DNA from: Acetatifactor sp.
GTDB taxonomy: Bacteria > Bacillota > Clostridia > Lachnospirales > Lachnospiraceae
Reading direction: 5' to 3'
DNA length: 64,000 nucleotides
NCBI GenBank assembly: GCA_029055435.1
Contig: JAIDDH010000096.1
Coordinates: 1 to 64,000 of the forward strand
The notes under the pieces were generated by a model. It did not search any database, was not told the DNA's origin, and saw only the letters and a list, made by a program, of their open reading frames with translations. The translations under genes were made by a program, and so were the position numbers. Position 1 is the stretch's first letter; every line of letters begins with the position of its first letter. Below are positions 31,280 through 32,362 of the stretch, in pieces.

Positions 31280-31308
31280 TTGACAGTTCAAACCTGTGAT
31301 GGTATATT
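31280..31308 (+). promoter_or_regulatory. Near-consensus sigma70-type promoter
   Basis: TTGACA (31280-31285) - 17 bp - TATATT (31303-31308). Confidence 0.75.
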
Positions 31309-31314
31309 ATTTGT

Positions 31315-31380
31315 AGTGGTTGTGCTGTGGATGCTCGAGGGGCCCACAGCCGGAGGAGCTCATGCGTGAGCTCCTTTTTT
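31315..31380 (+). ncRNA. Short structured RNA upstream of Abi gene (candidate abiF-type RNA / RNA antitoxin)
   Basis: From predicted TSS: hairpin GCTGTGG...CCACAGC, then terminator hairpin GGAGCTC-ATGC-GTGAGCTCC-TTTTTT. No ORF. Confidence 0.6.
31354..31380 (+). terminator. Intrinsic terminator between small RNA and Abi gene
   Basis: AGGAGCTCatgcGTGAGCTCCTTTTTT. Confidence 0.8.
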
Positions 31381-31411
31381 AACATATTATAGACGAAAGA
31401 GAGGATTTAGA

Positions 31412-32362
31412 TTGGCTCAAAACTTCATGACATATGAGCAACAGCTTAATAAACTACAGAATGATAAGGCTTTATCAATTCCAAATCCGGATGATGCCAA
31501 AAAGGTACTGGAAGAAATTAGTTACTATTCCTTAATTGTAGGATATAAAAATCTCTTTCTTCATCCTGCGTCAAAAAAATACAAATACGGTGTTACTTTT
31601 AACGAAATTGTGGCATTTTATCATTTTGATGAACAATTACGCAGCTTATTTTTACAATACATTTTACAGGTTGAACGGCATCTGAAATCCATGATTTCCT
31701 ACTATTTTTGTGAGAAACATGGAGAATCCCAAACCGAGTACCTCAATCCTAATAATTTTGATTACTCCAAGCATACCAAACAGGTTGCAAGATTAATAAA
31801 CTCATTAAGCAAAACTATTTCCCAACCAAGTAACTATCGATATATTGCGCATCATGCGCGCAAATATCATAATGTTCCTTTATGGGTCGCGACCAATGCA
31901 ATGACAATGGGACAAGTTTCCGCCTTTTATCAATATATGACAAACGATTTGCAAGTTAAAGTCAGCAAGGCCTATCCAGATTATACTGAAAAGCAATTGC
32001 ACCAATTTATAACAATCATTGCTAAGTACCGAAACGTGTGTGCTCACGGAGAGCGGTTATACAATTTTAAAACAACTGATATGATTCCTGATACTCTTCT
32101 CCATTCCAAATTATCTATCCCACAGAGAAAAAACTTATACATATATGGTAAAAATGACTTGTTTGCTGTGGTAATTTCCTTGCGTTACCTTATACGTGAT
32201 GAAGAGTTCAAAGCGTTCAAACTGTCTTTGCTACATCTTATCAAACAAGTTCTAACAAATTGTCCACATCTCACAGAATCTCAACTTTTAAATGAAATGG
32301 GATTCCCAGCCAATTGGAATCAAATTATAAGATATAAAATTCATACCCCTAATTCACCATAA
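31412..32362 (+). CDS. Abi_2 (AbiD/AbiF-like) abortive-infection protein with HEPN RxxxxH motif
   Basis: YEQQLNKLQNDKALSIPNPDDAKKVLEEISYYSLIVGYKNLF...VPLWVATNAMTMGQVSAFYQYM...YRNVCAHGERLYNF; TTG start 31412 with GAGAGG 7 nt upstream. Confidence 0.85.
   Translation: MAQNFMTYEQQLNKLQNDKALSIPNPDDAKKVLEEISYYSLIVGYKNLFLHPASKKYKYGVTFNEIVAFYHFDEQLRSLFLQYILQVERHLKSMISYYFCEKHGESQTEYLNPNNFDYSKHTKQVARLINSLSKTISQPSNYRYIAHHARKYHNVPLWVATNAMTMGQVSAFYQYMTNDLQVKVSKAYPDYTEKQLHQFITIIAKYRNVCAHGERLYNFKTTDMIPDTLLHSKLSIPQRKNLYIYGKNDLFAVVISLRYLIRDEEFKAFKLSLLHLIKQVLTNCPHLTESQLLNEMGFPANWNQIIRYKIHTPNSP

Follow-up and report, generated by a model that had tools for sequence, protein, structure and literature searches.

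The window analysed here, the whole stretch of 64,000 nucleotides (nt) given above, comes from an assembly of 3.47 Mb in 158 contigs, and its forward strand carries a module (31280-32362) in which a promoter, a structured leader RNA, an intrinsic terminator, a Shine-Dalgarno sequence and an Abi_2 gene follow one another in order (Table 1). An earlier note had read the promoter, the hairpin, the terminator, the Shine-Dalgarno sequence, the TTG start and the RNVCAH motif of the Abi_2 protein from the sequence, and all of them were confirmed at the same positions. The nearest homologs of the module lie in Lachnospiraceae-type assemblies. The leader RNA belongs to a family called R1 here, and its relation to the Abi_2 protein, a predicted HEPN RNase, is the subject of this text.

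Table 1. Features of the promoter-RNA-abi module and of the inserted stretch that holds it (window positions)
Feature	Position	Strand	Details and basis
Sigma-A promoter TTGACA-N17-TATATT	31280-31308	+	11/12 consensus bases; TG before the -10; TTGACA 31280-31285, TATATT 31303-31308
Leader RNA, R1 family (predicted 5' end A31315)	31315-31381	+	R1 82.7 bits, E = 1.5e-26 (by construction); covariation; z = -3.0 against shuffles
Hairpin 1: 7-bp stem GCUGUGG/CCACAGC, conserved loop AUGCUCGAGGGGC	31324-31350	+	7/7 pairs in 31/31 sequences; two-sided changes in 5/7 pairs; arms 31324-31330 and 31344-31350
Hairpin 2, intrinsic terminator: 9-bp stem, loop UGCG, six T	31354-31380	+	Folding, own terminator scan, covariation; arms AGGAGCUCA 31354-31362 and UGAGCUCCU 31367-31375; T tract 31375-31380
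Shine-Dalgarno GAGAGG	31399-31404	+	Sequence; TTG start 7 nt further on
Abi_2/AbiD-type HEPN RNase gene (predicted), 316 amino acids, TTG start 31412	31412-32362	+	Pfam, PADLOC, PDB 8vz6
Insertion relative to two same-genus genomes	31156-32401		Flanks align to G726 and G729 up to ~31155 and again from ~32402

The TTGACA/TATATT site scores highest among the region's 7 promoter-like sites. Transcription is predicted to start 7 nt after the -10 element, conservation begins exactly there, and the spacing between promoter and RNA start is kept in the homologs. The leader RNA of 66 nt folds into two hairpins (-31.3 kcal/mol), the second of which was unlisted by a simple terminator scan and was recovered by folding and a second scan. 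Besides, the sequence CCACT (31261-31265), 50-54 nt before the RNA start, mirrors AGTGG (31315-31319) with the promoter in between, and this pair, a possible operator, is present in 8 loci (the window, L001, L002, L004, L008, L010, L011 and L012).

The window protein is an Abi_2 HEPN RNase with intact catalytic motif and fold, for which RNase activity is predicted from its sequence and structural model. It matches Pfam Abi_2 (PF07751) with E = 1e-46 and 160 bits (gathering cut-off 25.6) and PADLOC AbiD with E = 1e-66. The R-X4-H motif RNVCAH occupies residues 207-212, all six of which are invariant in a 40-sequence alignment. With the AlphaFold2 model (predicted local distance difference test score 92), the fold search gave one significant match, PbAbiF with its noncoding RNA (PDB 8vz6; E = 1.3e-9, TM-score 0.71-0.75), to which the protein is also matched by sequence (E = 3.9e-12). 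In the alignment with PbAbiF, R207 and H212 fall on R210 and H215, which are reported to be required, their mutation inactivating PbAbiF (PMC12373285). In the source assembly this gene is the only Abi_2 gene found, and the single R1 copy of the window is the sole R1 match.

Conservation and covariation of the R1 leader

Upstream DNA of the best Abi homologs was drawn from genome collections, the selection being made by protein alone, and the same element stood at the same position before almost all of them. The R1 covariance model was built from an alignment of 31 homologous leaders with the window included, so that the window's own score carries no independent weight, which rests on the alignment statistics and on the independent matches. 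In this alignment, conservation runs from AGUG to the terminator. Covariation, which the earlier note had proposed to look for upstream of Abi homologs, was found in the form of two-sided compensatory changes in 12 of the 16 pairs, spanning proteins down to about 40% identity. Paired cells on the R1 structure reach 95.8%, versus 77.7% when shuffled and 38-58% when slid. The hairpin 1 stem, for example, appears as GCUGUGG/CCACAGC, GUUUCAG/CUGAGAC, GUCACAG/CUGUGAC and others, with pairing in every sequence. The loop of hairpin 1 (around C-U-Y-G-n-G), the loop of hairpin 2 and the linker are conserved too, which is more than a bare terminator requires. As the element recurs, with compensatory changes, before dozens of homologs, the leader RNA is real and conserved, far above chance.

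Association of R1 with one clade of Abi_2 proteins

A census was made of 397 genomes of the same family, with an R1 cut-off of 45 bits (87 places at or above it) and an upstream window of 350 nt. R1 lies upstream of 47 of the 53 Abi matches that share 35% identity or more with the window protein, and of 0 of the 63 below that value; the tally is weakest in its use of identity bands as a proxy for clades. Of the six exceptions, three are fragments (5'-truncated or at a contig edge), two are proteins of other clades (L137 and L138, the latter with a leader of type C), and one is G190, where a leaderless gene has the RNA with its own promoter just downstream.

The earlier note had linked the leader to the abiF motif (RF03085), which in this bacterial family, like R1, precedes Abi_2 genes. 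In the census RF03085 was found in 30 of 397 genomes, just upstream of more distant Abi_2 genes; it precedes 19 of the 63 Abi matches below 35% identity and was seen before none of those at or above it. RF03085 consists of one hairpin of 37 nt with GACCAC as its 3' bulge, whereas R1 has 66 nt and two hairpins. The Rfam model gave no match at gathering score in the window, none at E <= 10 in 31200-31450, and none at E <= 1 in 17 loci (the window and 16 relatives). That R1 is the abiF RNA was thus rejected, as RF03085 misses it and sequence and fold differ. Membership in another Rfam family was rejected as well; the best sub-threshold match in the window, Atu_C8 (E 0.19), resembles a generic terminator match.

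Direct reading of the leaders that precede more distant Abi_2 genes showed most of them to consist of an own promoter, a structured RNA and a terminator; one Abi clade had no visible leader. The types B to H, labelled by eye, look mutually unrelated. Such leader RNAs with terminators occur in L137-L184, for instance CUCCCUCAGGCCUCUGUGGAAACGCAUGCACACUUGAGGGCG, UUGCCAGUUUGUCCUCCGGUGUCCUUCGGGCCCGGGGGC and GGUCAGGAAGCGUACGACGCCCUGGCC, and RF03085 recognises one type only. By automatic scan, the full promoter-RNA-terminator-abi layout was present in 26 of 34 close loci, 14 of 34 distant loci and 4 of 270 control genes taken from the window and the fetched loci (distant versus control, Fisher p = 7e-12). 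Leader type tracks protein clade: on a protein tree built from at most 180 N-terminal residues per protein, 11 leader labels, set by eye from the leader DNA prior to tree building, require 12 changes, against a minimum of 10 and, after shuffling, a mean of 42.7 and a lowest value of 37.

Outside the bacterial family, no strong match was found in a 300-genome sample of the phylum. Leptotrichia plasmid Abi genes of about 32% identity (L205 510-580; L134 upstream of 2983) have leaders of similar plan, with AGUGRA, a GAGGG-loop hairpin and a terminator. The R1 model gave 15.8 bits on the L205 leader and no significant match at the L134 leader, which is too weak to settle kinship.

RNA copies without toxin and mobility of the module

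No Abi match lies just downstream of 40 of 88 R1 places (one of the 88 scoring only 30 bits). We inspected 36 of these toxin-less places (among L087-L125), and it turned out that 11 have remnants of Abi, in many cases lacking the 5' part (the remnant of L087 being judged by eye), and that 25 have none within 1.5 kb. In the solitary copies hairpin 1 pairs in 97% of cells, a value that leans high because they were found with the R1 model, and about 13 of the 25 have a promoter of at least 9/12 at the right distance. An intact toxin of the window's clade (clade A) without adjacent RNA was not found in the census. Loss of the toxin with the RNA kept, but not the opposite, matches the prediction for an antitoxin.

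Odd arrangements were also seen. In L133 and L115, abi is flanked by R1 copies on either side, and only in L126 (248-382) is one Abi gene preceded by two tandem copies, which recalls the repeat antitoxins of type III systems. In L094 and L122, R1 is followed by a P-loop gene (AGVNGAGKST) in place of Abi_2, with no visible promoter; the gene resembles a zeta-toxin-type kinase, which a Pfam scan of only 50 residues did not confirm. R1 also lies directly upstream of an apparent nucleotidyltransferase/HEPN pair in L099 and of an apparent DUF3990-like gene in L105, both named from sequence only.

In the two same-genus genomes the flanking genes are adjacent and the module is absent, the breakpoints in Table 1 being taken from the closer genome. 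The inserted stretch of about 1.2 kb holds the entire module, and no transposase was found in it. Since the flanks are contiguous without the module in these relatives, promoter, RNA and abi were inserted as one unit. Among viral contigs, an exact search with the window RNA found none; a degenerate RNA pattern found four contigs, each with the RNA and a full-length Abi, and no solitary phage-borne RNA. Related modules are also present in two phage scaffolds, unverified as phage. Relatives of PbAbiF in viral contigs were 39% fragments only. Elsewhere in the window, a TwoAYGGAY RNA (RF01731, an Rfam family of candidate regulatory RNAs) lies at 21212-21373 on the reverse strand with 84.4 bits.

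Function of the leader RNA and comparison with known systems

By sequence and by analogy, the module is probably a single-gene pair of RNA antitoxin and HEPN RNase, working like AbiF-RCd22 and type III pairs. Covariation, clade linkage, layout, the asymmetry of RNA-only loci and the downstream-only RNA in G190 favour a trans-acting antitoxin over a guide or a simple attenuator. The RNA-regulated HEPN toxin of the earlier note is well supported by covariation, strict clade linkage and the imbalance of RNA-only against toxin-only loci, while the binding and restraint it also proposed are what we infer, together with transcription, read-through, toxicity, phage defence and release by phage.

In such a pair, one promoter would yield many two-hairpin RNAs of about 66 nt, mostly ending at the terminator, and occasional read-through would give the mRNA of the Abi_2 toxin, so that the terminator would set the excess of RNA over toxin. 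The folded small RNA would bind an Abi_2 dimer and block its R-X4-H RNase site. If the toxin came to exceed the RNA, for instance after a phage has shut off transcription in the host, it would be freed, and it would then cut RNA, stop growth and protect the population.

Several points weigh against this picture. The production of the RNA, its binding to the protein and the neutralisation at this locus are deduced from sequence and analogy. The window RNA has no recognisable sequence in common with RF03085, the RCd22 motif, so the binding mode of RCd22 is not transferable in detail. The RNA is single-copy at nearly all loci (L126 has two copies), whereas classical type III systems carry it as tandem repeats. 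Besides, RNA-only loci could be recombination scars rather than selected antitoxins, since the two-sided copies in L133 and L115 offer another route to them, in which recombination leaves one RNA behind.

An unlikely alternative is that the leader acts in cis, as an attenuator or riboswitch-like element in which a signal controls read-through and the RNA never touches the protein. Nearly all loci do have a terminator that separates promoter from gene, and RCd22 represses its own gene at the transcription level as well (PMC12373285). However, the only RNA of the leaderless clade-A gene in G190 lies downstream with its own promoter and cannot serve as a cis attenuator; R1 copies flank abi on both sides in two loci; the 25 solitary RNAs keep the fold, and about half the promoter, without abi; and the consensus has no alternative antiterminator pairing. 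Still less probable is a mere 5' leader, whose promoter-proximal terminator limits a toxic gene and whose conservation comes from the spread of a mobile cassette. The module is indeed an insertion and is present in viral contigs, but compensatory changes down to about 40% protein identity and conserved loops outside the terminator need selection on RNA structure, and the RNA is retained after toxin loss. A guide role, which the earlier note had also considered and in which the RNA would direct the HEPN nuclease to targets of complementary sequence in the manner of the CRISPR RNA (crRNA) of Cas13, is highly improbable, because the whole RNA is conserved from the 5' end to the terminator, with no variable or spacer-like segment.

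A wider proposal, to which we give somewhat less than an even chance, is that all Abi_2 toxins belong to RNA-antitoxin systems, each clade with its own unrelated RNA family (a single bacterial family has at least 8 leader types, one of them known to Rfam), and that toxin-less RNAs persist as solitary antitoxins protecting against incoming modules. If unrelated RNAs hold different Abi_2 clades, the ways in which one HEPN fold came to recognise different RNAs could be compared, and the many lone "Abi family" genes annotated without an RNA partner could be tested by sequence. The solitary RNAs pose the question of whether bacteria keep antitoxin RNAs as protection against such toxins. It has been proposed that Cas13 descends from Abi_2/AbiD/F proteins and that the crRNA goes back to the antitoxin RNA of these proteins.

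Among known systems, type III toxin-antitoxin systems (ToxIN and relatives) consist of a promoter, an RNA antitoxin, a terminator and an RNase toxin, and the RNA of ToxN is a tandem-repeat array which the toxin cuts. The type III-like layout named in the earlier note holds for the order of the elements, which is the same here, but neither the ToxN fold nor tandem repeats were found: ToxN has another fold, the only significant fold match of the window toxin being PbAbiF, a HEPN protein, and the RNA is usually a single unit, with one R1 copy in the window.

PbAbiF-AbiFr (PDB 8vz6) shares the protein family, the fold and the aligned catalytic R and H with the window protein, but the identity in the structural alignment is 19%. 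The RNA of PbAbiF is most likely of the abiF type rather than R1, judging from its closest plasmid relative found (L203, 54% identity), which carries RF03085 at 59.1 bits.

For AbiF_Cd-RCd22 from the phi027 prophage of Clostridioides difficile, toxicity, an RNA antitoxin acting in cis and in trans, and direct RNA-protein binding have been demonstrated; RCd22 has a major form of 98 nt, a full length of 132 nt and two abiF (RF03085) motifs (PMC12373285). The window RNA differs from it in length, fold and sequence and is unrecognised by RF03085, but the two share the order of promoter, structured noncoding RNA, terminator and Abi_2/AbiD/F HEPN gene with an RNxCAH motif. R1 is unrecorded in Rfam 15 and in the literature surveyed, and Zilberzwige-Tal et al. 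2025 (PbAbiF) may already describe some leader types. As far as these sources and the sequences compared indicate, the R1 RNA family and its protein clade are new, and the mechanism would be of a known kind.
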